From contig NC_079879.1 of assembly GCF_029227915.1 (NCBI RefSeq), forward strand, positions 29,022,501-29,086,500: a stretch of 64,000 nt of DNA. The letters run 5' to 3'. How positions within the stretch are numbered: the first letter of the stretch is position 1; each line of letters opens with the position of its first letter. Positions 1-64,000 of this stretch are shown here, piece by piece. Made by a program: the position numbers and the translations under genes. Origin of the DNA: Hydractinia symbiolongicarpus. Lineage: Eukaryota > Cnidaria > Hydrozoa > Anthoathecata > Hydractiniidae. The notes under the pieces are model-generated. The model saw only the letters and a program-made list of their open reading frames with translations, was not told the origin of the DNA and did no database searches.

Positions 1-589
1 GGGCCGAGTCCGGGATTTACAAGAAATCGCGGGTTTTTGTTTGCCGGCGATCAAACTTCTTTTATTCAGCGTCTCATCAAAAATGAAAACATTTTTAAAA
101 ACTACAAGTCTCATGGGCTTTAGTGGTGAAATAATAATTTAAAAAATCGTGTGGGAAATTAGTTTACTCCCTGGGTACTTTCTTTGTATACTTTTGACTA
201 TACGGGCCGAGTCTGGGATTTACGGGAAATCGCAGGTTTTCGTTTGCCGGCGATTAAACTTCTTTTATTCAGCGTCTCATCAAAAATAAAAACATTTTTG
301 AAAACCACAATTCTCATGCGTTTTAGTGGTGAAAAAATAAATTAAAAAATCGTTCGGGAAATGAGTTTACTCCCTGGGGACTACCTTTGTATACTTCTGA
401 CTATACGGGACAAGCCCGGGATTTACGGGTAATCGCGGGTTTTCGTTTCCCGGCGATTAAACTTCTTTTATTCAGCGTCTCATCAGAAATGAAAACCTTT
501 TAGAAAACTACAATTCTCATGCGTTTTAGTGGTGAAAAAATAATTTAAAAAATCGTTCGGGAAATGAGTTTACTCCCTGGGGACTACCT
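1..589 (+). repeat. Satellite block paralogous to ~19.04-19.63 kb
   Basis: These three monomers share private variants in the same order with the block starting near 19040, and again near 19.66 and 21.29 kb. The variants are 'gcgatcaaac', 'gggaaattag', an 'aataaaaac' monomer with 'ataaatta', then a monomer with 'actacctttg' and 'caagcccggg'. The window's left edge therefore repeats a module found 19 kb away. It differs at scattered bases, for example the 'aagaaatcgc' at about 20 and the 'ggggactacc' at about 376. Confidence 0.75.
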
Positions 590-3500
590 TTGTATACTTC
601 TGACTATACGGGCCAAGAGCGGGATTTACGGGAAATCGCGGGTTTTCGTTTGCCGGCGATTAAACCTCTTTCATTAAGCGTCTCATCAAAAATGAAAACA
701 TTTTTAAAAACTACAAGTCTCATGCGTTTTAGTGGTGAAAAAAAAAATCGTTCGGGAAATGAGTTTACTCCCTGGGTACTTTCTTTGTATACATTCGACT
801 ATACGGGCCAAGCTTGGGTATTAACGGGAAATCGCGGGATTTTGTTTGCCGGCAATTAAACCACTTTCATTAAGCGTCTCTTCAAAAATGAAAACATTTC
901 TGAAAACTACAAGTCTCATGCGTTTTAGTGGTGAAAATTAATTTAAAAAATCGTTCGGGAAATGAGTTTACTCCCTGGGTACTTTCTTTGTATACTTTTG
1001 ACTATACGGGCCGAGTCCGGGATTTAGGGGAAGTCGCGGGTTTTCGTTTGCCGGCAATTAAACTTCTTTTTTTCAGCGTCTCATCAAAAATGAAAACATT
1101 TTTAAAAACTACAAGTCTCATGCGTTTTAGTGGTGAAAATTAATTTAAAAAATCGTTCGGGAAATGAGTTTACTCCCTGGGTACTTTCTTTGTATACTTT
1201 TGACTATACGGGCCGAGGCCGGGATTTACGGGAAGTCGCGGGTTTTCGTTTGCCGGCAATTAAACTTCTTTTTTTCAGCGTCTCATCAAAAATGAAAACA
1301 TTTTTAAAAACTACAAGTCTCATGGGCTTTAGTGGTGAAATAATAATTTGAAAAATCGTTCGGGAAATGAGTTTACACCCCGGGTACTTTCTTTGTATAC
1401 TTTTGACTATACGGGCCGAGTCCGGGATTTACGGGAAATCGCAGGTTTTCGTTTGCCGGCGATTAAACTTCTTTTATTCAGCGTCTCATCAAAAATGAAA
1501 ACATTTTTGAAAACTACAAGTCTCATGCGTTTTAGTGGTGAAAATTAATTTAAAAAATCGTTCGGGAAATGAGTTTACTCCCTGGGTACTTTCTTTGTAT
1601 ACTTTTGACTATACGGGCCGAGTCCGGGATTTAGGGGAAGTCGCGGGTTTTCGTTTGCCGGCAATTAAACTTCTTTTTTTCAGCGTCTCATCAAAAATGA
1701 AAACATTTTTAAAAACTACAAGTCTCATGCGTTTTAGTGGTGAAAATTAATTTAAAAAATCGTTCGGGAAATGAGTTTACTCCCTGGGTACTTTCTTTGT
1801 ATACTTTTGACTATACGGGCCGAGGCCGGGATTTAGGGGAAGTCGCGGGTTTTCGTTTGCCGGCAATTAAACTTCTTTTTTTCAGCGTCTCATCAAAAAT
1901 GAAAACATTTTTAAAAACTACAAGTCTCATGGGCTTTAGTGGTGAAATAATAATTTGAAAAATCGTTCGGGAAATGAGTTTACACCCCGGGTACTTTCTT
2001 TGTATACTTTTGACTATACGGGCCGAGTCCGGGATTTACGGGAAATCGCAGGTTTTCGTTTGCCGGCGATTAAACTTCTTTTATTCAGCGTCTCATCAAA
2101 AATGAAAACATTTTTGAAAACTACAAGTCTCATGCGTTTTAGTGGTGAAAAAATAATTTAAAAAATCGTTTTGGAAATGAGTTTACTCACAGGGTACTTT
2201 CTTTGTATACATTCGACTATACGGGCCAAGAGCGGGATTTACGGGAAATCGCGGGTTTTCGTTTGCCGGCGATTAAACCTCTTTCATTAAGCGTCTCATC
2301 AAAAATGAAAACATTTTTAAAAACTACAAGTCTCATGCGTTTTAGTGGTGAAAAAAAAAATCGTTCGGGAAATGAGTTTACTCCCTGGGTACTTTCTTTG
2401 TATACATTCGACTATACGGGCCAAGCTTGGGTATTAACGGGAAATCGCGGGATTTTGTTTGCCGGCAATTAAACCACTTTCATTAAGCGTCTCTTCAAAA
2501 ATGAAAACATTTCTGAAAACTACAAGTCTCATGCGTTTTAGTGGTGAAAATTAATTTAAAAAATCGTTCGGGAAATGAGTTTACTCCCTGGGTACTTTCT
2601 TTGTATACTTTTGACTATACGGGCCGAGGCCGAGATTTACGGGAAGTCGCGGGTTTTCGTTTGCCGGCAATTAAACTTCTTTTTTTCAGCGTCTCATCAA
2701 AAATGAAAACATTTTTAAAAACTACAAGTCTCATGGGCTTTAGTGGTGAAATAATAATTTGAAAAATCGTTCGGGAAATGAGTTTACACCACGGGTACTT
2801 TCTTTGTATACTTTTGACTATACGGGCCGAGTCCGGGATTTACGGGAAATCGCAGGTTTTCGTTTGCCGGCGATTAAACTTCTTTTATTCAGCGTCTCAT
2901 CAAAAATGAAAACATTTTTGAAAACTACAAGTCTCATGCGTTTTAGTGGTGAAAATTAATTTAAAAAATCGTTCGGGAAATGAGTTTACTCCCTGGGTAC
3001 TTTCTTTGTATACTTTTGACTATACGGGCCGAGTCCGGGATTTAGGGGAAGTCGCGGGTTTTCGTTTGCCGGCAATTAAACTTCTTTTTTTCAGCGTCTC
3101 ATCAAAAATGAAAACATTTTTAAAAACTACAAGTCTCATGCGTTTTAGTGGTGAAAATTAATTTAAAAAATCGTTCGGGAAATGAGTTTACTCCCTGGGT
3201 ACTTTCTTTGTATACTTTTGACTATACGGGCCGAGGCCGGGATTTACGGGAAGTCGCGGGTTTTCGTTTGCCGGCAATTAAACTTCTTTTTTTCAGCGTC
3301 TCATCAAAAATGAAAACATTTTTAAAAACTACAAGTCTCATGGGCTTTAGTGGTGAAATAATAATTTGAAAAATCGTTCGGGAAATGAGTTTACACCCCG
3401 GGTACTTTCTTTGTATACTTTTGACTATACGGGCCGAGTCCGGGATTTACGGGAAATCGCAGGTTTTCGTTTGCCGGCGATTAAACTTCTTTTATTCAGC

Positions 3501-6500
3501 GTCTCATCAAAAATGAAAACATTTTTGAAAACTACAAGTCTCATGCGTTTTAGTGGTGAAAAAATAATTTAAAAAATCGCTCGGGAAATGAGTTTACACC
3601 CTGGGCACTTTCTTTGTATACTTTTGAATTTACGGGCCGAGTCCGGGATTTACGGGAAGTCGCGGGTTTTCGTTTGCCGGCAATTAAACTTCTTTTTTTC
3701 AGCGTCTCATCAAAAATGAAAACATTTTTAAAAACTACAAGTCTCATGGGCTTTAGTGGTGAAATAATAATTTGAAAAATCGTTCGGGAAATGAGTTTAC
3801 ACCCCGGGTACTTTCTTTGTATACTTTTGACTATACGGGCCGAGTCCGGGATTTACGGGAAATCGCAGGTTTTCGTTTGCCGGCGATTAAACTTCTTTTA
3901 TTCAGCGTCTCATCAAAAATGAAAACATTTTTGAAAACTACAAGTCTCATGCGTTTTAGTGGTGAAAAAATAATTTAAAAAATCGCTCGGGAAATGAGTT
4001 TACACCCTGGGCACTTTCTTTGTATACTTTTGAATTTACGGGCCGAGTGCGGGATTTACGGGAAATCGCAGGTTTTCGTTTGCCGGCGATTAAACTTCTT
4101 TTATTCAGCGTCTCATCAAAAATGAAAACATTTTTGAAAACTACAAGTCTCATGCGTTTTAGTGGTGAAAAAATAATTTTAAAATTCGTTCGGGAAAGGA
4201 GTTTACTCACTGGGTACTTTCCTTGTATACTTTTGACTATACGGACCGAGTCCGGGATTTACGGGAAGTCGCGGGTTTTCGTTTGCCGGCAATTAAACTT
4301 CTTTTTTTCAGCGTCTCATCAAAAATGAAAACATTTTTAAAAACTACAAGTCTCATGGGCTTTAGTGGTGAAATAATAATTTGAAAAATCGTTCGGGAAA
4401 TGAGTTTACACCCCGGGTACTTTCTTTGTATACTTTTGACTATACGGGCCGAGTCCGGGATTTACGGGAAATCGCAGGTTTTCGTTTGCCGGCGATTAAA
4501 CTTCTTTTATTCAGCGTCTCATCAAAAATGAAAACATTTTTGAAAACTACAAGTCTCATGCGTTTTAGTGGTGAAAAAATATTTTAAAAAATCGTTTTGG
4601 AAATGAGTTTACTCACAGGGTACTTTCTTTGTATACATTCGACTATACGGGCCAAGAGCGGGATTTACGGGAAATCGCGGGTTTTCGTTTGCCGGCGATT
4701 AAACCTCTTTCATTAAGCGTCTCATCAAAAATGAAAACATTTTTAAAAACTACAAGTCTCATGCGTTTTAGTGGTGAAAAAAAAAATCGTTCGGGAAATG
4801 AGTTTACTCCCTGGGTACTTTCTTTGTATACATTCGACTATACGGGCCAAGCTTGGGTATTAACGGGAAATCGCGGGATTTTGTTTGCCGGCAATTAAAC
4901 CACTTTCATTAAGCGTCTCTTCAAAAATGAAAACATTTCTGAAAACTACAAGTCTCATGCGTTTTAGTGGTGAAAATTAATTTAAAAAATCGTTCGGGAA
5001 ATGAGTTTACTCCCTGGGTACTTTCTTTGTATACTTTTGACTATACGGGCCGAGTCCGGGATTTAGGGGAAGTCGCGGGTTTTCGTTTGCCGGCAATTAA
5101 ACTTCTTTTTTTCAGCGTCTCATCAAAAATGAAAACATTTTTAAAAACTACAAGTCTCATGCGTTTTAGTGGTGAAAATTAATTTAAAAAATCTTTCGGG
5201 AAATGAGTTTACTCCCTGGGTACTTTCTTTGTATACTTTTGACTATACGGGCCGAGGCCGGGATTTACGGGAAGTCGCGGGTTTTCGTTTGCCGGCAATT
5301 AAACTTCTTTTTTTCAGCGTCTCATCAAAAATGAAAACATTTTTAAAAACTACAAGTCTCATGGGCTTTAGTGGTGAAATAATAATTTGAAAAATCGTTC
5401 GGGAAATGAGTTTACACCCCGGGTACTTTCTTTGTATACTTTTGACTATACGGGCCGAGTCCGGGATTTACGGGAAATCGCAGGTTTTCGTTTGCCGGCG
5501 ATTAAACTTCTTTTATTCAGCGTCTCATCAAAAATGAAAACATTTTTGAAAACTACAAGTCTCATGCGTTTTAGTGGTGAAAATTAATTTAAAAAATCGT
5601 TCGGGAAATGAGTTTACTCCCTGGGTACTTTCTTTTTATACTTTTGACTATACGGGCCGAGTCCGGGATTTAGGGGAAGTCGCGGGTTTTCGTTTGCCGG
5701 CAATTAAACTTCTTTTTTTCAGCGTCTCATCAAAAATGAAAACATTTTTAAAAACTACAAGTCTCATGCGTTTTAGTGGTGAAAATTAATTTAAAAAATC
5801 GTTCGGGAAATGAGTTTACTCCCTGGGTACTTTCTTTGTATACTTTTGACTATACGGGCCGAGGCCGGGATTTACGGGAAGTCGCGGGTTTTCGTTTGCC
5901 GGCAATTAAACTTCTTTTTTTCAGCGTCTCATCAAAAATGAAAACATTTTTAAAAACTACAAGTCTCATGGGCTTTAGTGGTGAAATAATAATTTGAAAA
6001 ATCGTTCGGGAAATGAGTTTACACCCCGGGTACTTTCTTTGTATACTTTTGACTATACGGGCCGAGTCCGGGATTTACGGGAAATCGCAGGTTTTCGTTT
6101 GCCGGCGATTAAACTTCTTTTATTCAGCGTCTCATCAAAAATGAAAACATTTTTGAAAACTACAAGTCTCATGCGTTTTAGTGGTGAAAAAATAATTTAA
6201 AAAATCGCTCGGGAAATGAGTTTACACCCTGGGCACTTTCTTTGTATACTTTTGAATTTACGGGCCGAGTCCGGGATTTACGGGAAATCGCAGGTTTTCG
6301 TTTGCCGGCGATTAAACTTCTTTTATTCAGCGTCTCATCAAAAATGAAAACATTTTTGAAAACTACAAGTCTCATGCGTTTTAGTGGTGAAAAAATAATT
6401 TTAAAATTCGTTCGGGAAAGGAGTTTACTCACTGGGTACTTTCCTTGTATACTTTTGACTATACGGACCGAGTCCGGGATTTACGGGAAGTCGCGGGTTT

Positions 6501-7394
6501 TCGTTTGCCGGCAATTAAACTTCTTTTTTTCAGCGTCTCATCAAAAATGAAAACATTTTTAAAAACTACAAGTCTCATGGGCTTTAGTGGTGAAATAATA
6601 ATTTGAAAAATCGTTCGGGAAATGAGTTTACACCCCGGGTACTTTCTTTGTATACTTTTGACTATACGGGCCGAGTCCAGGATTTACGGGAAATCGCAGG
6701 TTTTCGTTTGCCGGCGATTAAACTTCTTTTATTCAGCGTCTCATCAAAAATGAAAACATTTTTAAAAACTACAAGTCTCATGCGTTTTAGTGGTGAAAAA
6801 ATAATTTAAAAAATCGCTCGGGAAATGAGTTTACACCCTGGGCACTTTCTTTGTATACTTTTGAATTTACGGGCCGAGTCCGGGATTTACGGGAAATCGC
6901 AGGTTTTCGTTTGCCGGCGATTAAACTTCTTTTATTCAGCGTCTCATCAAAAATGAAAACATTTTTAAAAACTACAAGTCTCATGCGTTTTAGTGGTGAA
7001 AATTAATTTAAAAAATCGTTCGGGAAATGAGTTTACTCCCTGGGTACTTTCTTTGTATACTTTTGACTATACGGGCCGAGTCCGGGATTTACGGGAAGTC
7101 GCGGGTTTTCGTTTGCCGGCAATTAAACTTCTTTTTTTCAGCGTCTCATCAAAAATGAAAACATTTTTAAAAACTACAAGTCTCATGGGCTTTAGTGGTG
7201 AAATAATAATTTGAAAAATCGTTCGGGAAATGAGTTTACACCCCGGGTACTTTCTTTGTATACTTTTGACTATACGGGCCGAGTCCGGGATTTACGGGAA
7301 ATCGCAGGTTTTTGTTTGCCGGCGATTAAACTTCTTTTATTCAGCGTCTCATCAAAAATGAAAACATTTTTGAAAACTACAAGTCTCATGCGTT
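590..7394 (+). repeat. Trimeric HOR domain (607 bp unit) with 8- and 12-monomer super-units
   Basis: Three subtypes alternate, spaced 202, 203 and 202 bp, giving a 607 bp trimer. One has 'gatttaggggaagtcgc', one has 'ccgaggccggg', and one has 'cgcaggttttcg' with 'acaccccggg'. A distinctive dimer ('gccaagagcggg' then 'gccaagcttggg', with the spacer between its halves shortened to an A-run) starts super-units at about 590, 2203 and 4629. These lie 1613 and 2426 bp apart, about 8 and 12 monomers. A block from about 3772 recurs from about 5994 (offset 2222 bp, 11 monomers). The 202 bp monomers separate this domain from the mostly 203 bp monomers further right. Confidence 0.85.
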
Positions 7395-10300
7395 TTAGTG
7401 GTGAAAAAATAATTTAAAAAATCGTTCGGGAAATGAGTTTACACCCTGGGTACTTTCTTTGTATACTTTTGAATTTACGGGCCGAGTCCGGGATTTACGG
7501 GAAATCGCAGGTTTTCGTTTGTCGGCGATTAAACTTCTTTTATTCAGCGTCTCATCAAAAATGAAAACATTTTTGAAAACTACAAGTCTCATGCGTTTTA
7601 GTGGTGAAAAAATAATTTTAAAATTCGTTCGGGAAAGGAGTTTACTCACTGGGTACATTCCTTGTATACTTTTGACTATACGGACCGAGTCCGGGATTTA
7701 CGGGAAATCGTGGGTTTTCGTTTGCCGGCGATTAAACATCTTTTATTCAGCGTCTCATTAAAAATGAAAACATTTTTAAAAACTACAAGTCTCATGGGCT
7801 TTAGTGGTGAAATAATAATTTAAAAAATCGTTTGGGAAATGAGTTTACTTCCTGGGTACTTTCTTTGTATACTTTTGACTATATGGGCCAAGCCGGGATT
7901 TACGGGAAATGGCGGGTTTTTCTTTGCCGGCGATTAAACTTCTTTTATTCAGCGTCTCTTCAAAAATGAAAACATTTCTGAAAACTACAAGTCTTATGCG
8001 TTTTAGTGGTGAAAATTAATTTAAAAAATCGTTCGGGAAATGAGTTTACTCCCTGGGTACTTTCTTTGTATACTTTTGACTATACGGGCCGAGTCCGGGA
8101 TTTACGGGAAGTCGCGGGTTTTCGTTTGCCGGCAATTAAACTTCTTTTTTTCAGCGTCTCATCAAAAATGAAAACATTTTTAAAAACTACAAGTCTCATG
8201 GGCTTTAGTGGTGAAATAATAATTTGAAAAATCGTTCGGGAAATGAGTTTACACCCCGGGTACTTTCTTTGTATACTTTTGACTATACGGGCCGAGTCCG
8301 GAATTTACGGGAAATCGCAGGTTTTCGTTTGCCGGCGATTAAACTTCTTTTATTCAGCGTCTCATCAAAAATGAAAACATTTTTGAAAACTACAAGTCTC
8401 ATGCGTTTTAGTGGTGAAAAAATAATTTAAAAAATCGTTCAGGAAATGAGTTTACACCCTGGGTACTTTCTTTGTATACTTTTGAATATACGGGCCGAGT
8501 CCGGGATTTACGGGAAATCGCAGGTTTTCGTTTGCCGGCGATTAAACATCTTTTATTCAGCGTCTCATCAAAAATGAAAACATTTTTGAAAACTACAAGT
8601 CTCATGCGTTTTAGTGGTGAAAAAATAATTTTAAAATTCGTTCGGGAAATGAGTTTACTCACTGGGTACTTTCTTTGTATACTTTTGACTATACGGGCCA
8701 AGCCGGGATTTACGGGAAATGGCGGGTTTTTGTTTGCCGGTGATTAAACTTCTTTTATTCAGTGTCTAATCAAAAATGAAAACATTTTTGAAAACTACAA
8801 GTCTCATGCGTTTTAGTGGTGAAAAAGTAATATAAAAAATCGTTCGGGAAAAGAGTTTACTCCCTGGGTAATTTCTTTGTATACTTTTGACTATACGGGC
8901 CGAGTCCGGGATTTACGGGAAATCGCAGGTTTTCGTTTGCCGGCGATTAAACTTCTTTTATTCAGCGTCTCATCAAAAATGAAAACATTTTTGAAAACTA
9001 CAAGTCTCATGCGTTTTAGTGGTGAAAAAATAATTTTAAAATTCGTTCGGGAAATGAGTTTACTCACTGGGTACTTTCCTTGTGTACTTTTGACTATACG
9101 GACCGAGTCCGGGATTTACAGGAAATAGCGGGTTTTCGTTTGCCGGCGATTAAACATCTTTTATTCAGCGTCTCATTAAAAATGAAAACATTTTTAAAAA
9201 CTACAAGTCTCATGGGCTTTAGTGGTGAAATAATAATTTAAAAAATCGTTTGGGAAATGAGTTTACTCCCTGGGTACTTTCTTTGTATACTTTTGACTAT
9301 ACGGGCCGAGTCCAGCATTTACGGAAAATCGCAGGTTTTCGTTTGCCGGCGATTAAACTTCTTTTATTCAGCGTCTTATTAAAAATGAAAACATTTTTAA
9401 AAACTACAAGTCTCATGGGCATTTAGTGGTGAAATAATAATTTAAAAAATCGTTTGGGAAATGAGTTTACTCCCTGGGTACTATCTTTGTATACTTTTGA
9501 CTATACGGGCCGAGTCCAGGATTTACGGAAAATGGCGGGTTTTTGTTTGCCGGCGATTAAACTTCTTTTATTCAGCGTCTCATCAAAAATGAAAACATAT
9601 TTGAAAACTACAAGTCTCATGCGTTTTAGTGGTGAAAAAATAATTTAAAAAATCGTTCGGGAAATGAGTTTACTACCTGTGTACTTTCTTTGTATACTTT
9701 TGACTATACGGGCCAAGCCGGGATTTACGGGAAATGGCGGGTTTTTGTTTGCCGGCGATTAAACTTCTTTTATTCAGCGTCTCATCAAAAATGAAAACAT
9801 TTTTGAAAACTACAAGTCTCATGCGTTTTAGTGGTGAAAAAGTAATATAAAAAATCGTTCGGGAAATGAGTTTACTCCCTGGGTACTTTCTTTGTATACT
9901 TTTGACTATACGGGCCGAGTCCGGGATTTGCGGGGAGTCGCGGGTTTTCGTTTGCCGGCGATTAAACTTCTTTTATTCAGAGTCTCATCAAAAATGAAAA
10001 CATTTTTAAAAACTACAAGTCTCATGCGTTTTAGTGGTGAAAAAATAATTTAAAAAATCGTTTGGGAAATGAGTTAACTCCCTGGGTACTTTCTTTGTAT
10101 ACTTTTGAATATACGGGCCGAGTCCGGGATTTACGGGAAATCGCGGGTTTTCGTTTGCCGGCGATTAAACTTCTTTTATTCAGCGTCTCATCAAAAATGA
10201 AAACATTTTTGAAAACTACAAGTCTCATGCGTTTTAGTGGTGAAAAAATAATTTTAAAATTCGTTCGGGAAATGAGTTTACTCACTGGGTACTTTCCTTG

Positions 10301-51470: not shown

Positions 51471-53373
51471 CGTTCGGGAAATGCGTTTACTCACTGGGTA
51501 CTTTCCTTGTATACTTTTAACTATACGGGCCGAGTCCGGGATTTACGGGAAATCGTGGGTTTTCGTTTGCCGCCGATTAAACATTTTTATTCAGCGTCTC
51601 ATCAAAAATGAAAACATTTTTGAAAACTACAAGTCTCATGCGTTTTAGTGGTGAAAAAATAATTTAAAAATTCGTTCGGGAAATAAGTTTACTCACCGGG
51701 TACTTTCCTTGTATACTTTTGACTATACGGGCCGAGTCCGGGATTTACGGGAAATCGCAGGTTTTCGTTTGCCGGCGATTAAACTTCTTTTATTCAGCGT
51801 CTCATCAAAAATGAAAACATTTTTAAAAACTACAAGTCTCATGGGCTTTAGTGGTGAAATAATAATTTAAAAAATCGTTTGGGAAATGAGTTTACTCCCT
51901 GGGTACTTTCTTTGTATACATTTGACTATGCGGGCCGAGTCCGGGATTTACGGGAAATCGCGGGTTTTCGTTTGCCGCCGATTAAACTTCTTTTATTCAG
52001 CGTCTCATCAAAAATGAAAACATTTTTAAAAACTACAAGTCTCATGGGCTTTAGTGGTGAAATAATAATTTAAAAAATCGTTTGGAAAATGAGTTTACTC
52101 CCTGGGTACTTTTCTTTGTATACTTTTGAGTATACGGGCCGAGTCCGGGATTTACGGGAAATCGCAGGTTTTCGTTTGCCGGCGATTAAACTTCTTTTAT
52201 TCAGCGTCTCATCAAAAAGGAAAACACTTTAGAAAACTACAAGTCTCATGCGTTTTAGTGGTGAAAAAATAATTCAAAAATCGTTCGGGAAATGCTTTTA
52301 CACCCTGGGTACTTTCTTTGTATACTTTTGAGTATACGGGCCGAGTCCGGGATTTATGGGAAATCGCAGGTTTTCGTTTGCCGGCGATTAAACTTCTTTT
52401 ATTCAGCGTCTCATCAAAAAGGAAAACACTTTAGAAAACTACAAGTCTCATGCGTTTTAGTGGTGAAAAAATAATTCAAAAAATCGTTCGGGAAATGCTT
52501 TTACACCCTGGGTACTTTCTTTGTATACTTTTGACTATACGGGCCGAGTCCGGGATTTACGGGAAATCGCAGGTTTTCGTTTGCCGGCGATTAAACTTCT
52601 TTTATTCAGCGTCTCATCAAAAATGAAAACATTTTTAAAAACTACAAGTCTCATGGGCTTTAGTGGTGAAATAATAATTTAAAAAATCGTTCGGGAAATG
52701 AGTTTACTCACTGGGTACTTTCCTTGTATACTTTTAACAATACGGGCCGAGTCCGGGATTTACGGGAAATCGCGGGTTTTCGTTTGCCGGCGATGAAACT
52801 TCTTTTATTCAGCGTCTCATCAAAAATGAAAACATTTTTGAAAACTACAAGTCTTATGCGTTTTAGTGGTGAAAAAATAATTTAAAAATTCGTTCGGGAA
52901 ATAAGTTTACTCACCGGGTACTTTCCTTGTATACTTTTGACTATACGGGCCGAGTCCGGGATTTACGGGAAATCGCAGGTTTTCGTTTGCCGGCGATTAA
53001 AGTTCTTATATTCAGCGTCTCATCAAAAATGAAAACATATCTGAAAACTACAAGTCTCATGCGTTTTAGTGGTGAAAAAATAATTTAAAAATTCGTTCGG
53101 GAAATGAGTTTACTCACTGGGTACTTTCCTTGTATACTTTTAACTATACGGGCCGAGTCCGAGATTTACGGGAAATCGCAGGTTTTCGTTTGCCGGCGAT
53201 TAAACTTCTTTTATTCAGCGTTTCATCAAAAATGAAAACATTTTTAAAAACTACAAGTCTCATGGGCTTTAGTGGTGAAATAATAATTTAAAAAATCGTT
53301 TGGGAAATGAGTTTACTCCCTGGGTACTTTCTTTGTATACTTTTGACTATACGGGCCGAGTCCGGGATTTACG
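51471..53373 (+). repeat. Satellite monomers forming the left flank of the nested element
   Basis: The last three full monomers and the broken one carry a fixed order of variants. These are 'taacaatacggg' with 'gcgatgaaac', then 'aaataagtttactcaccggg' with 'ttatattcag', then 'cgagatttacggg' with 'cagcgtttcatc', then a monomer cut at 'gggatttacg'. The same order, uninterrupted, is found at about 58.59-59.25 kb and again at 59.40-60.06 kb. Confidence 0.85.
53365..53373 (+). repeat. Target-site duplication, left copy (GGATTTACG)
   Basis: Nine bases immediately outside the left terminal inverted repeat, identical to 56807-56815. The unbroken satellite has this 9-mer once per monomer, so the duplication arose at insertion. 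Confidence 0.93.
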
Positions 53374-53455
53374 CAATCTCGTTCCCAGGGCTTCTTTTTC
53401 TCTTTCTGATATGTGGCTGGCGCGAAAGAAGTAGCTCTGGGACTGGCCGGTCAAA
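53374..53455 (+). repeat. Left terminal inverted repeat (82 bp)
   Basis: It pairs with the reverse complement of 56724-56806 at 77 of 83 aligned positions. Differences are at TIR positions 10, 16, 28, 41 and 79, plus a one-base gap near position 43. It contains its own inverted repeat: 'tcccagggcttcttt' near its outer end against 'aaagaagtagctctggga' near its inner end. The single-stranded terminus could therefore fold back on itself. Confidence 0.93.
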
Positions 53456-53479
53456 ATACCCACCTATAGTGGGTATTTT
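53453..53479. other. Perfect 11 bp hairpin next to the left TIR
   Basis: AAAATACCCAC and GTGGGTATTTT flank a 5-base loop, CTATA. The palindrome overlaps the last three bases of the left TIR and has no counterpart at the right end. It could be a transposase-binding or subterminal structure, or a mark of a small palindromic insertion. The function is unknown. Confidence 0.8.
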
Positions 53480-53591
53480 TGAAAGAGCCGTTTGTCTTGC
53501 TTGTCCAGATTTTACGGAAGGGATATAGGAAGGTAACTGAGCATAAAAACAAGCATATGGCGAGTAAAAATTTAGTTAGCTGGCTAACAAG
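53480..53591 (+). promoter_or_regulatory. 5' leader region of the helicase gene
   Basis: There are 112 bases between the hairpin and the helicase start codon. No convincing TATA element at the usual distance is visible; a 'gatatagg' lies at about 53521. A short upstream frame starts in this interval (see its own entry). An in-frame stop, TAG at 53577-53579, precedes the chosen start codon. The promoter presumably lies here or inside the TIR, which is inference. Confidence 0.4.
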
Positions 53592-53604
53592 ATGGAAAAT
53601 ATAA
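53557..53604 (+). promoter_or_regulatory. Upstream ORF overlapping the helicase start codon (15 codons)
   Basis: An ATG at 53557-53559 opens a 15-codon frame that ends with TAA at 53602-53604, ten bases past the helicase ATG in another frame. Its start has A at -3 and G at +4, so scanning ribosomes could use it and lower helicase translation. It could equally be chance, or lie upstream of the true transcription start. Confidence 0.4.
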
Positions 53605-55339
53605 TACAACTTTTTTCCAAACTTCGACTTGCTCTAGAGAAAGGTTTTGACCCAAATTTTGTGTTAAAGACCAAACAAATCATTTGCTTTGAACAACTAA
53701 TTAATGGAAACGATACTCTTGCGGTTTTGCCTACTGGATATGGGAAATCCATTTTGTACCAGTTACTTCCTTTTGTAATGCCTTTACAGAAGAAAAGAAA
53801 CATAGTGATTGTTGTTAGCCCTCTCAACGCTATCATTGAGGATCAACAAAAAATTTTGAGCCAAAGAGGTGTAGAAGTTGCTACACTTACTTATGAAAGG
53901 GAAGAATGTACAGAAGATCTTTTTGCACATTTGAATACGGAAGATCCTGTCGAACCAAATTTCAAAGTTTCACATGAAATAAAAAATGGAGATATTGATT
54001 TTTTATTTGGACATCCAGAAGCATTTTTGTCACACACAGGAAGAAATTTACTAAAATCAAAAATTTATCAGGATAATGTTGTTGCATGTGTAGTAGACGA
54101 GGCACATTGTGTGGAATTGTGGTAAGTAAATTTTATATATAGCTAGCTACAAAATGTACAAAAACTATCAGCTAAAAATATACATGTATATATATACTCT
54201 TTTTGTTACTATGTATATACTATAATTTACATATTTAGGTATATATATATATTATGTTTTTATATCGTTTCAGGGGACTGGAATTTAGAAAAAGCTTTCA
54301 AGATTTGGTTGTCTTAAACACCATCTTTCAAGATCGCCCTATGCTTGCATTAACCGCAACTGCGGGAGATAAAATGATTTTCAAAATTATAAAAGACTTA
54401 TCTCTACAGAACTGCAAAATTGTAAAAGCCTCACCAAATCGTAGAAATGTGTTTCTAAGTGTAAAAAAACGACTTCCAAACAACTATGGTGTAAAAAGTT
54501 ATGAACAAATTCTATTACCAATAGCAACAAAATTAAACGAAACAAGACAAGATTACCCTATCACAATTATATATATGGGTTTAAAATATTGTGGATATGC
54601 ATATAAACTTTTTGACATGGTTATTGAAAATCCCTTCTGTGAAAACGAGATAACTCCAAGAGCTAAATTGTATGCTCAATTTCATGCATCAACCACTTCG
54701 TGTATGAAAGAAGATATTTTGGAAGAATTGAAATCCTTAAACTCTCGAATAAGGGTAGTATTTGCAACCACTGCTTTTGGTATGGGTGTTAATGTACCTC
54801 AGGTTACTAACATTATTCATATTTCTCCCCCATCAAAACTGGAAAGTTACATACAAGAAATTGGACGTGCAGGGAGAAATGGTGCACAATCAAATGCCAT
54901 ATTGTACTACAACAACTCTGACATCAGTAAAAATAATTTAAAAATGGATGAATCAATTAAAAAATATTGTCAAGGGACTGATTGTCTCAGAAAATCATTG
55001 CTCAAATACTTCAGTTTTAAATGCGAAACACAAGACAATTGTTGTGAAAACTGTAATCCTACGACAACTGAAGATTTTTCTCCTGTTCATCATATACAAA
55101 TGTCAGATATTGATAGAGAATCAATACGTTTAGAGCTAGAAATGATTAATGTTGAAAAGGAAGAAGACTCTCATTTATTAACATTTGAGTTTAATTTGAC
55201 ACATGATGTTATTGGAAAAATTTCCAACAATTTTCATTTAATAACTTGTGAACGTGATTTATTGCATAAATTTGATGTTTGGGATGAAAGGTATTTGACA
55301 AAAATTTTTGATGTCATCAGAAAATATTTGAATCTATAA
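53592..55339 (+). CDS. RecQ-family ATP-dependent DNA helicase, two exons
   Basis: Predicted 3'-5' SF2 DNA helicase of 531 residues. Exons are 53592-54121 and 54274-55339, with a 152 bp GT-AG intron between them. Visible motifs are: Walker A PTGYGKS at residues 47-53, motif Ia SPLNAIIEDQ at 76-85, DEAH at 169-172, TATA of motif III at 204-207, AFGMGVNVP of motif V at 344-352, and QEIGRAGRNG of motif VI at 371-380. A RecQ-type zinc cluster follows (C414, C427, CCENC at 433-437). The splice rejoins a Trp codon and recreates the RecQ DEAHC...WG.(D/E)FR block, which strongly supports the model. Unspliced, translation stops right after DEAH. The start has A at -3 and G at +4 and follows an in-frame stop. 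The C-terminal ~95 residues are divergent, and I see no clear HRDC domain. No frameshift is visible, so the gene looks intact. It lies inside the TIR element, convergent with the minus-strand gene; a role in element replication or mobility is inference. Captured cargo is the alternative. Confidence 0.92.
54122..54273 (+). other. Intron of the RecQ-like helicase gene (152 bp)
   Basis: It begins GTAAGT and ends TTTCAG. It is rich in TA dinucleotides, with several 'tatata' runs, and contains 'tagctagcta'. Removing it keeps the reading frame and joins TG to G to complete the conserved Trp (residue 177). Confidence 0.92.
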
Positions 55340-55374
55340 GTATATAAATAATATATATAGTTTTTATTTCTTCT

Positions 55375-55380
55375 TTTATT
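55375..55380 (-). terminator. Candidate polyadenylation signal of the minus-strand gene
   Basis: TTTATT on the plus strand reads AATAAA on the minus strand, about 280 bases beyond the stop codon. A second one lies at 55363-55368. Evidence is limited to the hexamer. Confidence 0.35.
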
Positions 55381-55583
55381 TTGTTGAAAACATTTTTTAT
55401 TGGTAAGGTTGGACCATTAGAATTTTTGTGAAGCAGATTGTCTATATATATACTCTAGATAGCTAGTTTGATTATGCAACAAATTTATAATCAAATAAGA
55501 TTTTTGATGGGGTCAAACAACATTTATCTGTAAAGATATTTTAGACATCCTATATCAGCAATATTTTTTAAAGTCCAGCTTGC

Positions 55584-55589
55584 AATAAA
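55584..55589 (+). terminator. Candidate polyadenylation signal of the helicase gene
   Basis: This is the first canonical AATAAA downstream of the helicase stop on the plus strand. It is followed by T/G-rich sequence ('agtttatgttttta'). The composition is AT-rich, so a chance match is possible. Confidence 0.4.
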
Positions 55590-55661
55590 AAGTTTATGTT
55601 TTTATGCATATTCACATTCTAATAATGTATATATATATAACACATTGTGTGTAAGAATATT

Positions 55662-56252
55662 TTACTGATAAATACCTATTTCATTTTTATGATTATCAAG
55701 CCATTTATGAAAGTCACTCACATTTAAATAGCGTAGTGGATTACTCTTTATATTGCAAAAGCTTGCATGAAATCTATCAGGTATCGAACCGAAGGGTTTT
55801 ACTCTCAGCAATTCTTCAATTATTTCGATCTCATCATTTTTACTATTAGCAGTTGCATGTTGAACAGATTTTGCATGTTTCTCCAGTTCTTTATCGTAAT
55901 TTTCAGTTATTTCTTTAATCCCACTTGTTGCTTTGCATATTTTACTAATAGAACTAAAGGTTTTGTTTGGTCCCATATGATGTACAATATTTTTACTGAT
56001 TTTATTTGTTATTTCCTGTGCTAAATCTTCTTCAATATTTTGACCAGGACCGCCTCTCCAATTTACAAAATAACTCCACTTTTGTTGTTCAGCAAGCCTT
56101 GGTGTTAATAAGCTTTCCACTTGAGCTATTGATACAAACATTTCGAGTGCATACTTGCTGTATATAAATATTATAAACATAAAATTTTATGAAGTATGGT
56201 CATACCTTTTTGGTGAATCTTCTGCAGTTATTCTTTTATTTTTTCCAAACAT
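55662..56252 (-). CDS. DUF6589-like protein (C-terminal region), two exons
   Basis: Predicted 180 residues. On the minus strand, exon 1 is 56252-56206 and exon 2 is 56157-55662, with a 48 bp GT-AG intron. The splice joins AG to C to give Ser16 and the conserved-looking start KYALEMF. The ATG follows an in-frame TAA with no AG between them, so an upstream exon joined just before it is unlikely. Residues 40-60 (QQKW..FVN.RGGPGQN) and 141-149 (IPDRFHASF) resemble the C-terminal part of DUF6589-type proteins, a multicopy family of unknown function in marine invertebrates and fungi. I recognise this by motif memory, not by a search. Family members I recall are several hundred residues long, so this copy may be truncated or a separate short partner. 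No membrane segment or signal peptide is seen; a charged helical stretch spans about 97-135. It is convergent with the helicase inside the same TIRs. Confidence 0.65.
56158..56205 (-). other. Intron of the DUF6589-like gene (48 bp)
   Basis: On the minus strand it begins GTATGA and ends TATACAG. It is very AT-rich and unusually short, but both sites fit consensus and the joined frame is open. If it is unspliced, a 172-residue frame starting inside the intron is the alternative product. Confidence 0.65.
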
Positions 56253-56723
56253 GTTGATGCATGGTTACATGATGAGAATATATAGCTAGTCTAGCTCTAG
56301 TTTTTTCACTACCTGAGTTTTTCTTACTAGCTATAACCTTTCCTTTTAAGAACACATAAGATCATGATTAACTTTTTGTCAGATTTAAAGCCAGCTGTAG
56401 GGTATAAACAGGTGTAAAAAAGCATAGAAAAAAAGTGTGAAAAAAATTTAGCTAAACAAAAGGTGAGAAAAACCTATTTATAAGTACCTTGCATTATATC
56501 TTTTTACAGGTATCTTTTCAACATGGTCGTAAGCATTACCAAAATAATATTTTTTTAAATTTTATTCTTTATGTAATAAAAATCTTCAAACTTCAACCAT
56601 TAACAAACAGCAACATAACAAATCCCGCACATCATCTTCCGACATTTTAAATTACGTTACGTTCTCGCCTTGAAGCAACTCGTCTTAAAACTCGCGTAAC
56701 TGAAGAGCCAATGAAATTCAAAC
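56253..56723. other. Right internal region of the element, no gene seen
   Basis: 471 AT-rich bases between the minus-strand gene and the right TIR, presumably holding its promoter. 'tagctag' and related motifs cluster at 56281-56300. A TATATA lies only about 25 bases above the minus-strand ATG, too close for a standard promoter. No convincing further exon of the DUF6589-like family is visible here, which limits how much upstream coding sequence this copy can have. Confidence 0.6.
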
Positions 56724-56806
56724 TTTAACCGGCCAGTCCCAGAGCTACTTCTTTCGCGCCAGCACGCATATCAGAAAGGGAAAAAGAAGCTCTGGGGACG
56801 AGATTG
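56724..56806 (-). repeat. Right terminal inverted repeat (83 bp)
   Basis: Inverse of 53374-53455. Within it, 'aaagaagc' and 'tctggggac' on the outer side pair with 'tcccagagctacttcttt' on the inner side, with a two-base bulge. Each TIR is therefore itself a potential hairpin. The outer end reads CGAGATTG. Confidence 0.93.
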
Positions 56807-56815
56807 GGATTTACG
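56807..56815 (+). repeat. Target-site duplication, right copy (GGATTTACG)
   Basis: Identical to 53365-53373 and directly abutting the right TIR. The satellite monomer then continues in phase with 'ggaagtcgcggg'. Confidence 0.93.
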
Positions 56816-58586
56816 GGAAGTCGCGGGTTTTCGTTTGCCGGCGATTAAACTTCTTTTATTCAGCGTCTCATCAAAAATGAAAACATTTTTAAAAACTACA
56901 AGTCTCATGGGTTTTAGTGGTGAAATAATAGTTTAAAAAATCGTTCGGGAAATGAGTTTACTCACTGGGTACTTTCCTTGTATACTTTTAACAATACGGG
57001 CCGAGTCCGGGATTTACGGGAAATCGCGGGTTTTCGTTTGCCGGCGATTAAACCACTTTCATTAAGCGTCTCATCAAAAATGAAAACATTTCTGAAAACT
57101 ACAAGTCTCATGCGTTTTAGTGGTGAAAAAATAATTTAAAAAATCGTTCGGGAAATGAGTTTACTCCCTGGGTACTTTCTTTGTATACTTTTGACTATAC
57201 GGGCCGAGTCCGGGATTTACGGGAAATCGCGGGTTTTCGTTTGCCGGCGATTAAACCACTTTCATTAAGCGTCTCATCAAAAATGAAAACATTTCTGAAA
57301 ACTACAAGCCTCATGCGTTTTAGTGGTGAAAAAATAATTTAAAAAATCGTTCGGGAAATGAGTTTACTCCCTGGGTACTTTCTTTGTATACTTTTGACTA
57401 TACGGGCCGAGTCCGGGATTTACGGGAAGTCGCGGGTTTTCGTTTGCCGGCGATTAAACTTCTTTTATTAAGCGTCTCATAAAAAATGAAAACATTTTTA
57501 AAAACTACAAGTCTCATTGTCTTTAGTGGTGAAATAATAATTTAAAAAATCGTTTGGGAAATGAGTTTACTCCCTGGGTACTTTCTTTGTATACTTTTGA
57601 CTATACGGGCCGAGTCCGGGATTTACGGGAAGTCGCGGGTTTTCGTTTGCCGGCGATTAAACTTCTTTTATTAAGCGTCTCATAAAAAATGAAAACATTT
57701 TTAAAAACTACAAGTCTCATGGGCTTTAGTGGTGAAATAATAATTTAAAAAATCGTTCGGGAAATGAGTTTACTCCCTGGGTACTTTCTTTGTATACTTT
57801 TGACTATACGGGCCGAGTCCAGGATTTACGGGAAATCGCAGGTTTTCGTTTGCCGGCGATTAAACTTCTTTTATTCAGCGTCTCATCAAAAATAAAAACA
57901 TTTTTGAAAACTACAAGTCTCATGCGTTTTAGTGGTGAAAAAATAATTTAAAAATCGTTCGGGAAATGAGTTTACTCCCTGGGTACTTTCTTTGTATACT
58001 TTTGACTATGCGGGCCGAGTCCGAGATTTACGGGAAATCGCGGGTTTTCGTTTGCCGGCGATTAAACCACTTTCATTAAGCGTCTCATCAAAAATGAAAA
58101 CATTTCTGAAAACTACAAGTCTCATGCGTTTTAGTGGTGAAAAAATAATTTAAAAATTCGTTTGGGAAATGAGTTTACTCACTGGGTACTTTCCTTGTAT
58201 ACTTTTAACTATACGGGCCGAGTCCGGGATTTACGGGAAATCGCGGGTTTTCGTTTGCCGCCGATTAAACTTCTTTTATTCAGCGTCTCATCAAAAATGA
58301 AAACATTTTTAAAAACTACAAGTCTCATGGGCTTTAGTGGTGAAATAATAATTTAAAAAATCGTTTGGGAAATGAGTTTACTCCCTGGGTACTTTTCTTT
58401 GTATACTTTTGAGTATACGGGCCGAGTCCGGGATTTACGGGAAATCGCAGGTTTTCGTTTGCCGGCGATTAAACTTCTTTTATTCAGCGTCTCATCAAAA
58501 AGAAAAACACTTTAGAAAACTACAAGTCTCATGCGTTTTAGTGGTGAAAAAATAATTCAAAAAATCGTTCGGGAAATGCTTTTACA

Positions 58587-60063
58587 CCCTGGGTACTTTC
58601 CTTGTATACTTTTAACAATACGGGCCGAGTCCGGGATTTACGGGAAATCGCGGGTTTTCGTTTGCCGGCGATGAAACTTCTTTTATTCAGCGTCTCATCA
58701 AAAATGAAAACATTTTTGAAAACTACAAGTCTCATGCGTTTTAGTGGTGAAAAAATAATTTAAAAATTCGTTCGGGAAATAAGTTTACTCACCGGGTACT
58801 TTCCTTGTATACTTTTGACTATACGGGCCGAGTCCGGGATTTACGGGAAATCGCAGGTTTTCGTTTGCCGGCGATTAAAGTTCTTATATTCAGCGTCTCA
58901 TCAAAAATGAAAACATATCTGAAAACTACAAGTCTCATGCGTTTTAGTGGTGAAAAAATAATTTAAAAATTCGTTCGGGAAATGAGTTTACTCACTGGGT
59001 ACTTTCCCTGTATACTTTTAACTATACGGGCCGAGTCCGAGATTTACGGGAAATCGCAGGTTTTCGTTTGCCGGCGATTAAACTTCTTTTATTCAGCGTT
59101 TCATCAAAAATGAAAACATTTTTAAAAACTACAAGTCTCATGGGCTTTAGTGGTGAAATAATAATTTAAAAAATCGTTTGGGAAATGAGTTTACTCCCTG
59201 GGTACTTTCTTTGTATACTTTTGACTATACGGGCCGAGTCCGGGATTTACGGGAAGTCGCGGGTTTTCGTTTGCCGGCGATTAAACTTCTTTTATTCAGC
59301 GTCTCATCAAAAATGAAAACATTTTTAAAAACTACAAGTCTCATGGGTTTTAGTGGTGAAATAATAATTTAAAAAATCGTTCGGGAAATGAGTTTACTCA
59401 CTGGGTACTTTCCTTGTATACTTTTAACAATACGGGCCGAGTCCGGGATTTACGGGAAATCGCGGGTTTTCGTTTGCCGGCGATGAAACTTCTTTTATTC
59501 AGCGTCTCATCAAAAATGAAAACATTTTTGAAAACTACAAGTCTCATGCGTTTTAGTGGTGAAAAAATAATTTAAAAATTCGTTCGGGAAATACGTTTAC
59601 TCACCGGGTACTTTCCTTGTATACTTTTGACTATACGGGCCGAGTCCGGGATTTACGGGAAATCGCAGGTCTTCGTTTGCCGGCGATTAAAGTTCTTATA
59701 TTCAGCGTCTCATCAAAAATGAAAACATATCTGAAAACTACAAGTCTCATGCGTTTTAGTGGTGAAAAAATAATTTAAAAATTCGTTCGGGAAATGAGTT
59801 TACTCACTGGGTACTTTCCTTGTATACTTTTAACTATACGGGCCGAGTCCGAGATTTACGGGAAATCGCAGGTTTTCGTTTGCCGGCGATTAAACTTCTT
59901 TTATTCAGCGTTTCATCAAAAATGAAAACATTTTTAAAAACTACAAGTCTCATGGGCTTTAGTAGTGAAATAATAATTTAAAAAATCGTTTGGGAAATGA
60001 GTTTACTCCCTGGGTACTTTCTTTGTATACTTTTGACTATACGGGCCGAGTCCGGGATTTACG
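58587..60063 (+). repeat. Tetramer HOR (812 bp) copies of the element's flank
   Basis: The variant order that flanks the nested element on its left recurs at about 58.59 and 59.40 kb, 812 bp or four monomers apart. The second copy has 'gaaatacgtttactc' and 'gcaggtcttcg', which separate it from the first. Confidence 0.8.
59243..59251 (+). other. Paralogous empty site of the nested element
   Basis: The uninterrupted 9-mer GGATTTACG lies in the same variant context as the element's two flanks. About 640 bases to its left match the element's left flank with about two differences seen ('ctcatgcg' against 'cttatgcg', 'ttccctg' against 'ttccttg'). About 190 bases to its right match the right flank with one ('ataataattt' against 'ataatagttt'). 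Confidence 0.85.
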
Positions 60064-61815
60064 GGAAGTCGCGGGTTTTCGTTTGCCGGCGATTAAACTT
60101 CTTTTATTCAGCGTCTCATCAAAAATGAAAACATTTTTAAAAACTACAAGTCTCATGCGTTTTAGTGGTGAAAAAATTATTTAAAAAATCGTTCGAGAAA
60201 TGAGTTTACTGCCTGGGTACTTTCTTTGTATACTTTTGACTATGCGGGCCGAGTCCGGGATTTACGGGAAATCGCGGGTTTTCGTTTGCCGGCGATTAAA
60301 CCACTTTCATTAAGCGTCTCATCAAAAATGAAAACATTTTTGAAAACTACAAGTCTCATGCGTTTTAGTGGTGACAAAAATAATTTAAAAAATCGTTCGG
60401 GAAATGAGTTTACTCCCTGGGTACTTTCTTTGTATACATTTGACTATGCGGGCCGAGTCCGGGAATTACGGGAAGTCGCGGGTTTTCGTTTGCCGGCGAT
60501 TAAACTTCTTTTATTCAGCGTCTCATCAAAAATGAAAACATTTTTAAAAACTACAAGTCTCATGGGCTTTAGTGGTGAAATAATAATTTAAAAATTCGTT
60601 CGGGAAATAAGTTTACTCACCGGTTTCTTTCCTTGTATACTTTTAACTATACGGGCCGAGTCAGGGATTTACGGGAAATCGCAGGTCTTCGTTTGCCGGC
60701 GATTAAAGTTCTTATATTCAGCGTCTCATCAAAAATGAAAACATATCTGAAAACTACAAGTCTCTTGCGTTTTAGTGGTGAAAAAATAATTTAAAAATTC
60801 GTTCGGGAAATGAGTTTACTCACTGGGTACTTTCCTTGTATACTTTTAACTATACGGGCCGAGTCCGAGATTTACGGGAAATCGCAGGTTTTCGTTTGCC
60901 GGCGATTAAACTTCTTTTATTCAGCGTTTCATCAAAAATGAAAACATTTTTAAAAACTACAAGTCTCATGGGCTTTAGTAGTGAAATAATAATTTAAAAA
61001 ATCGTTTGGGAAATGAGTTTACTCCCTGGGTACTTTCTTTGTATACTTTTGACTATACGGGCCGAGTCCGGGATTTACGGGAAGTCGCGGGTTTTCGTTT
61101 GCCGGCGATTAAACTTCTTTTATTCAGCGTCTCATCAAAAATGAAAACATTTTTAAAAACTACAAGTCTCATGGGCTTTAGTGGTGAAATAATAATTTAA
61201 AAAATCGTTCGGGAAATGAGTTTACTCCCTGGGTACTTTCTTTGTATACTTTTGACTATACGGGCCGAGTTCAGGATTTACGGGAAGTCGCAGGTTTTCG
61301 TTTGCCGGCGATTAAACTTCTTTTATTCAGCGTCTCATCAAAAATAAAAACATTTTTAAAAACTACAAGTCTCATGCGTTTTAGTGGTGAAAAAATTATT
61401 TAAAAAATCGTTCGAGAAATGAGTTTACTGCCTGGGTACTTTCTTTGTATACTTTTGACTATGCGGGCCGAGTCCGGGATTTACGGGAAATCGCGGGTTT
61501 TCGTTTGCCGGCGATTAAACCACTTTCATTAAGCGTCTCATCAAAAATGAAAACATTTTTGAAAACTACAAGTCTCATGCGTTTTAGTGGTGACAAAAAT
61601 AATTTAAAAAATCGTTCGGGAAATGAGTTTACTCCCTGGGTACTTTCTTTGTATACATTTGACTATGCGGGCCGAGTCCGGGAATTACGGGAAGTCGCGG
61701 GTTTTCGTTTGCCGGCGATTAAACTTCTTTTATTCAGCGTCTCATCAAAAATGAAAACATTTTTAAAAACTACAAGTCTCATGGGCTTTAGTGGTGAAAT
61801 AATAATTTAAAAATT
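59791..61815 (+). repeat. Hexamer-type HOR (1219 bp unit), two copies
   Basis: The block containing 'aaaattatttaaaaaatcgttcgag', then 'gtgacaaaaataattt', then 'gggaattacgggaag' occurs at about 60170 and again at about 61390 (offset 1219 bp, six monomers). The left copy lacks one monomer with 'cgagttcagg' that is present at about 61205-61400, so the upstream offset is 1016 bp instead. Confidence 0.75.
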
Positions 61816-64000
61816 CGTTCGGGAAATGAGTTTACTCACTGGTTACTTCCCTTGTATACTTTTAACTATACGGGCCGAGTCCGGGATTTACGGGAAATCG
61901 CGGGTTTTCGTTTGCCGGCGATTAAACTTCTTTTATTCAGCGTCTCATCAAAAATGAAAACATTTTTGAAAACTACAAGTCTGATGCGTTTTAGTGGTGA
62001 AAAAATAATTTAAAAAATCGTTCGGGAAATGAGTTTACTTCCTGGGTACTTTCTTTGTATACATTTGACTATGCGGGCCGAGTCCGGGATTTACGGGAAA
62101 TCGCGGGTTTTCGTTTGCCGGAGATTAAACCACTTTCATTAAGCGTCTCATCAAAAATGAAAACATTTCTGAAAACTACAAGTCTCATGCGTTTTAGTGG
62201 TGAAAAAATAATTTAAAAAATCGTTCGGGAAATGAGTTTACTCCCTGGGTACTTTCTTTGTATACATTTGACTATGCGGGCCGAGTCCGGGATTTACGGG
62301 AAATCGCATGTTTTCGTTTGCCGGCGATTAAACTTCTTTTATTCAGCGTCTCATCAAAAATGAAAACATTTTTAAAAACTACAAGTCTCATTGTCTTTAG
62401 TGGTGAAATAATAATTTAAAAAATCGTTTGGGAAATGAGTTTACTCCCTGGGTACTTTCTTTGTATACTTTTGACTATACGGGCCGAGTCCGGGATTTAC
62501 GGGAAGTCGCGGGTTTTCGTTTGCCGGCGATTAAACTTCTTTTATTAAGCGTCTCATAAAAAATGAAAACATTTTTAAAAACTACAAGTCTCATTGTCTT
62601 TAGTGGTGAAATAATAATTTAAAAAATCGTTTGGGAAATGAGTTTACTCCCTGGGTACTTTCTTTGTATACTTTGACTATACGGGCCGAGTCCGGGATTT
62701 ACGGGAAGTCGCGGGTTTTCGTTTGCCGGCGATTAAACTTCTTTTATTAAGCGTCTCATAAAAAATGAAAACATTTTTAAAAACTACAAGTCTCATGGGC
62801 TTTAGTGGTGAAATAATAATTTAAAAAATCGTTCGGGAAATGAGTTTACTCCCTGGGTACTTTCTTTGTATACTTTTGACTATACGGGCCGAGTCCAGGA
62901 TTTACGGGAAATCGCAGGTTTTCGTTTGCCGGCGATTAAACTTCTTTTATTCAGCGTCTCATCAAAAATAAAAACATTTTTGAAAACTACAAGTCTCATG
63001 CGTTTTAGTGGTGAAAAAATAATTTAAAAATCGTTCGGGAAATGAGTTTACTCCCTGGGTACTTTCTTTGTATACTTTTGACTATGCGGGCCGAGTCCGA
63101 GATTTACGGGAAATCGCGGGTTTTCGTTTGCCGGCGATTAAACCACTTTCATTAAGCGTCTCATCAAAAATGAAAACATTTCTGAAAACTACAAGTCTCA
63201 TGCGTTTTAGTGGTGAAAAAATAATTTAAAAATTCGTTTGGGAAATGAGTTTACTCACTGGGTACTTTCCTTGTATACTTTTAACTATACGGGCCGAGTC
63301 CGGGATTTACGGGAAATCGCGGGTTTTCGTTTGCCGCCGATTAAACTTCTTTTATTCAGCGTCTCATCAAAAATGAAAACATTTTTAAAAACTACAAGTC
63401 TCATGGGCTTTAGTGGTGAAATAATAATTTAAAAAATCGTTTGGGAAATGAGTTTACTCCCTGGGTACTTTTCTTTGTATACTTTTGAGTATACGGGCCG
63501 AGTCCGGGATTTACGGGAAATCGCAGGTTTTCGTTTGCCGGCGATTAAACTTCTTTTATTCAGCGTCTCATCAAAAAGGAAAACACTTTAGAAAACTACA
63601 AGTCTCATGCGTTTTAGTGGTGAAAAAATAATTCAAAAAATCGTTCGGGAAATGCTTTTACACCCTGGGTACTTTCTTTGTATACTTTTGACTATACGGG
63701 CCGAGTCCGGGATTTACGGGAAATCGCAGGTTTTCGTTTGCCGGCGATTAAACTTCTTTTATTCAGCGTCTCATCAAAAATGAAAACATTTTTAAAAACT
63801 ACAAGTCTCATGGGCTTTAGTGGTGAAATAATAATTTAAAAAATCGTTCGGGAAATGAGTTTACTCACTGGGTACTTTCCTTGTATACTTTTAACAATAC
63901 GGGCCGAGTCCGGGATTTACGGGAAATCGCGGGTTTTCGTTTGCCGGCGATGAAACTTCTTTTATTCAGCGTCTCATCAAAAATGAAAACATTTTTGAAA

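Follow-up and report, generated by a model that had tools for sequence, protein, structure and literature searches.

The window analysed here is a stretch of 64,000 nucleotides of the Hydractinia symbiolongicarpus genome in which a transposable element lies within satellite DNA. The rest of the window (1-53364 and 56816-64000) is one array of a 203-bp satellite in about 300 tandem copies. In the available part of the genome paper (PMC10411563), satellites make up 0.03% of the assembly, and interspersed repeats left unclassified 48.11%; given so small a satellite share, the 203-bp repeat has perhaps been filed as unclassified.

The element spans 53374-56806 (3,433 bp) and has inverted ends of about 82 bp. 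Comparison of the inverted arms places the left terminal repeat, which starts CAATCTCG, at 53374-53455 on the plus strand and the right one, ending CGAGATTG, at 56724-56806 on the minus strand. Identity is 93% between 53374-53413 and 56767-56806, and 98% between 53416-53455 and 56724-56763. Directly outside these ends the sequence reads GGATTTACG at both 53365-53373 and 56807-56815, a 9-bp target-site duplication (TSD). With the flanks joined, self-identity of the satellite at a period of 203 is 0.93, as against 0.70 with the element left in; five other shifts, serving as a control for the period, give 0.27-0.38. The joined flanks thus regain the 203-bp phase, so that the empty site is recovered and the insertion is real. 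A chance origin is excluded by 13 further copies that share these ends and have 9- or 10-bp duplications of their own. The original prediction is borne out in its account of a true insertion with terminal inverted repeats, a 9-bp duplication and restored satellite phase. Satellite-like sequence, about 75% identical to a crude consensus, also adjoins two of the other copies, L017 on its left flank and L020 on its right; judging from these flanks, the element may land in satellite arrays repeatedly.

The plus strand of the element carries a two-exon helicase gene. Exon 1 (53592-54121) has a Pfam match to the DEAD domain and is followed by a GT..AG intron of 152 bp (54122-54273), while exon 2 (54274-55339, stop codon included) matches Helicase_C and, below threshold, the RecQ zinc-binding domain. 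Splicing reproduces P0068, a predicted protein of this species, exactly, giving a readable model of 531 aa with 100% identity to it. DEAD and Helicase_C pass their cut-offs and RecQ_Zn_bind falls just short (24.9 bits, cut-off 25), which agrees with the RecQ-like helicase gene that had been predicted; the best PDB match is WRN (E 8.7e-22).

The convergent gene, at 55662-56157 on the minus strand, matches DUF6589 (PF20231) with 47.3 bits (cut-off 27) over positions 310-410 of the 410-position profile. Because only these positions match, it is a C-terminal remnant. From the Pfam match and comparison with a full-length copy, it is read as part of a putative transposase gene that retains the last candidate catalytic residue, the E of NIEED. 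An autonomous window copy is ruled out, as positions 310-410 are all that remains of DUF6589.

Related copies and the internal deletion

When the genome assembly (480.9 Mb, 76 contigs) was searched with an 87-bp query from the left end, at least 43 matches were returned, 40 of 125 candidates having been scored. Among the matches listed, the window copy and 13 others (L009-L021) have both ends, which answers the call for further copies with these termini; 12 of the 14 (the window and 11 others) have a 9-bp TSD, and L014 and L016 have one of 10 bp. This count leaves aside matches without a paired end, L022-L028, which are partial or divergent by blast, and three very short head-to-head pairs. 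The latter, of about 115-125 bp (C7:12573664-12573783, C9:24709930-24710045 and C14:6388044-6388168), have almost nothing between their ends and are palindromic, MITE-like remnants.

The full-length copy is L009 (C13:10220424-10226492; 6,069 bp; TSD agaagccct). It has the same helicase; a convergent open exon of 606 aa matches DUF6589 over positions 5-410, and an exon upstream of it bears a zf-AD zinc-finger domain. At 99.7% and 99.5% identity, respectively, the window copy aligns to 1-2789 and 5424-6069 of L009; the two segments meet, with a 2-bp overlap, at 56161/56162. The 2,636 bp lost at this junction held almost three quarters of the DUF6589 exon as well as the zf-AD domain, which is most likely why the window seemed to lack a transposase.

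The deletion also accounts for an apparent second spliced gene. A 48-bp apparent intron (56158-56205, minus strand) spans the junction, preceded by 15 codons that may have been exon 1 of the putative transposase gene before the deletion (56206-56252, minus strand); both are sequence readings. In L009, the codons around SKYALEM lie in the interior of a long exon. The deletion brings intron sequence just upstream of them, so that TACAG resembles a splice acceptor and the 15-codon exon appears to precede the remnant; this acceptor is probably fortuitous. Of the two spliced convergent genes proposed originally, the helicase is indeed spliced, while the DUF6589-like one is a remnant whose apparent intron crosses a deletion junction.

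L011 has a deletion junction identical to that of the window copy at a different site. A second deletion, lying between 2895 and 5510 in L009 coordinates, is common to eight copies (L012-L015 and L017-L020). L016 and L021 have deletions differing from both of these, and L010 has been rearranged and contains foreign sequence. A DUF6589 match over 5-410 occurs in L009 alone of the 14; among the matches listed, the others reach at most 229-410 or are absent. Since copies with the same deletion have different TSDs, they moved after the deletion arose, and mobilisation in trans is the simplest inference.

The helicase is free of internal stops and frame breaks in five of the 14 copies (the window, L009, L011, L015 and L019), a count that covers stops and frame and is the author's reading of alignments and profile matches. 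Together with the near-identity of the copies, this suggests recent activity. That selection keeps the helicase in the derivatives was considered and dropped, as the frame is unbroken in these five copies only.

L010 has both ends and measures 7,164 bp (locus 417-7580), of which about 5.5 kb is foreign. The insert contains open reading frames of 286 and 526 aa, which we take to resemble a P-element-type (THAP) transposase, and has inverted arms of 25 bp (1508-1532 and 4905-4929); it is probably a nested transposon.

Pairing of DUF6589 and helicase genes across families

PF20231 has at least 101 matches in the Hydractinia genome. Among the matches listed, 28 are full-length (start at or before 17, end at 410), and at least 22 of these have a convergent helicase match, on the opposite strand 337-799 bp downstream; the helicase search scored 81 of 469 candidates and the pairing took in 66 of 105 rows. 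The six remaining cases may be true losses or reflect a limit of the helicase search. For 22 chosen shorter DUF6589 matches, a convergent helicase lies within 6 kb in 13, three of them more than 3.5 kb away. Twelve DUF6589 loci were read directly (L009 and L029-L039), and 11 have both genes, the exception being L029, where no helicase matched. TSDs of 9 bp and ends CAACCTCG or CAAACTCG were found at L033, L034, L036 and L037; element ends were searched for at L030, L031, L032, L035, L038 and L039 and not found there. Joint conservation of the two genes is thus seen in five families with CAATCTCG-like termini and 9- or 10-bp TSDs.

Helicase identity between families is 37-58% excluding L032, and 23-29% to L032. 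Divergence of the helicase follows that of DUF6589 with a Mantel r of 0.92 over 10 loci, 0.92 without L032 and 0.74 without L031 and L032, and none of 5000 permutations reached the observed value in any of the three cases; L031 and L039 belong to one family. Judged by sequence, the helicase and the DUF6589 protein diverge in parallel. Convergent pairs that are themselves deeply diverged, with about 23-29% identity to other families, were observed at L030 and L032. Additionally, two clusters on C5, one with three near-identical DUF6589 matches about 9,034 bp apart (C5:26537174-26556561) and one with five matches over 131 kb (C5:19135859-19266969), suggest local duplication of whole elements.

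Outside this genome, contigs of 6,544, 8,014 and 20,708 bp occur in the lists for both proteins, paired by their identical lengths; the control gave one coincidence over 14 shifted comparisons of contigs longer than 4.5 kb. These three length matches suggest that the pair also occurs beyond this genome. DUF6589 relatives were searched for in viral_contigs and genome_contigs, and none was confirmed.

DUF6589 as a candidate DDE transposase domain

An AlphaFold model of the DUF6589 protein ranks DDE recombinases first, namely Hermes (hAT), Transib and RAG1, with middling Z-scores of up to 8.0. The predicted fold aligns with these over about 290-330 residues, and its candidate D, D and E residues, which are conserved, fall in matching order. 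Foldseek E-values for the model were not significant (no match at E <= 0.001), and a search of PDB sequences with the DUF6589 profile gave none at E <= 10. On this modelled likeness, DUF6589 would most likely be a DDE transposase domain whose fold is akin to those of Hermes, Transib and RAG1. The transposase missing from the window would then most likely be DUF6589 itself, since the deletion relative to L009 removed most of this gene. The earlier view that the element has no recognisable transposase gives way to that of a probable DDE transposase truncated in this copy, and the longer relative that was sought with a DDE domain has its candidate in the full DUF6589 protein of L009.

In the proposed mechanism, a full-length element of about 6.07 kb would encode two convergent proteins, a zf-AD/DUF6589 protein and a RecQ-type SF2 helicase. 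The former, as transposase, would recognise the CAATCTCG ends, cleave there and insert them into a target cut with a stagger of 9 (or 10) bp, repair of which would generate the TSD. The helicase would act as an accessory, probably unwinding DNA at the ends, the staggered target or the donor break. The window copy, having lost most of the transposase gene and kept a readable helicase, would supply helicase at most and be mobilised in trans by transposase from elsewhere.

The by-product of most use is a likely role for DUF6589, which Pfam lists as of unknown function: proteins predicted as "DUF6589 domain-containing" in cnidarians, and perhaps in other groups, may be transposases. Since a single genome holds numerous diverged families of the pair, Hydractinia is well suited to asking what part a RecQ helicase plays in cut-and-paste transposition.

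This genome also holds another group with DUF6589, made up of L029 (C2:27292600-27300600) and four other places, whose match to PF20231 covers 191-409 (39.2 bits, cut-off 27). Its inverted repeat is 366 bp long, with TAGACAGGG as the ends, and no helicase matched. By eye, its TSD is 3 bp in four both-ended copies, with 5 bp possible in two AT-rich cases. The L029 open frame is 1,063 aa long, and the motifs of its C-terminal part are presumably XPG/FEN1-like. Pfam XPG_I has four matches in the genome, none at L029-family places, and the C-terminal half matched none of the PDB sequences. Set against two host exons of XPG type, L029 gave no significant result in single-sequence hhalign (Prob 0.4 and 0.7 of 100), and alignment of DUF6589 with the L029 protein was weak (Prob 2.5, E 0.019).

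Placement among known transposons

The window copy very probably derives, by internal deletion, from an AcademH-type cut-and-paste transposon (Academ superfamily) of H. symbiolongicarpus, is non-autonomous and moved recently. This placement follows published descriptions of helicase and TSD length rather than Academ sequences. The available part of PMC10045372 gives TSDs of 9 or 10 bp for AcademH, tied to a helicase, and of 3 or 4 bp for AcademX, tied to a nuclease. Here, 9- or 10-bp TSDs are present in all 14 copies, 9-bp ones at L033, L034, L036 and L037, and the SF2 helicase has DEAD and Helicase_C above cut-off. The published AcademH lineage already combines a helicase with 9- or 10-bp TSDs, contrary to the idea of an undescribed system; the kind of element is known, and what is gained is well-resolved detail. 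Likewise, the suggestion that helicase and DUF6589 protein form the mobility machinery of a poorly described class holds as to the conserved convergent pair, but AcademH had already been published.

A separate, undescribed superfamily outside Academ, with a DUF6589 DDE transposase and a RecQ helicase acting jointly, is unlikely. Comparison with Academ by description leaves it some room, and DUF6589 is unnamed in the full-text literature searched, which mostly excluded subscription papers. Against this stand the AcademH traits of helicase and TSD length, the listing of DEAD and Helicase_C as Pfam domains of AcademH, KolobokH or Helitron helicases in the part of PMC10799480 available, and the L029 group, whose DUF6589 comes with the 3-bp TSDs given for AcademX and with no helicase. 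There is also a small chance that the convergent zf-AD/DUF6589 and RecQ elements form a group of their own, distinct from described AcademH, with the helicase obligate for strand separation at the ends; such a requirement, if true, would be unusual for DDE cut-and-paste elements.

A Kolobok-type element is very improbable, even though, according to the accessible part of PMC9587614, KolobokH carries a RecQ helicase beside its transposase and in one rhodophyte Kolobok the helicase lies on the complementary strand. The same source gives Kolobok TSDs as TTAA-specific and 4 bp long, which none of the 14 copies has, and KolobokH was rejected on TSD length. It is equally hard to believe that host RecQ and DUF6589 genes were captured as incidental cargo by a non-autonomous element. 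The window helicase does resemble host RecQ (WRN), and the window holds no complete transposase; yet the convergent pair recurs in diverged families and co-diverges, and the three length-matched contigs suggest it outside this genome. The idea of a non-autonomous element mobilised in trans with host-like cargo thus survives in part: its non-autonomy is read from sequence, trans mobilisation would follow from the shared deletions, and the cargo is disfavoured.

Like AcademH in the excerpted descriptions, the element joins a DEAD and Helicase_C helicase to 9- or 10-bp TSDs, and animals are among AcademH hosts according to a title as cited elsewhere. The window copy differs in lacking most of the transposase (DUF6589 310-410, as against the full protein in L009); the two convergent genes, zf-AD and CAA..TTG ends of the element were set beside AcademH by description only. 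The Hydractinia genome paper (PMC10411563) makes no mention of "Academ" in its main text. KolobokH is similar in placing a RecQ helicase in a DDE transposon, but, in the part of its description available, has TTAA TSDs and fungal hosts, unlike the 9- or 10-bp TSDs of varied sequence found here.

The nuclease of AcademX is XPG. With its 3- or 4-bp TSDs and nuclease, AcademX differs from the window element; the two DUF6589-gene exons of L009 gave zf-AD and DUF6589 and no Pfam match to a nuclease. A search for literature on Academ transposases with XPG, judged by titles and the start of abstracts, returned nothing on the subject. By description only, AcademX resembles the L029 family, which has 3-bp TSDs and also DUF6589; L029 is an AcademX candidate, its XPG part being a reading of motifs, and, if a true AcademX, would tie DUF6589 to the Academ superfamily.
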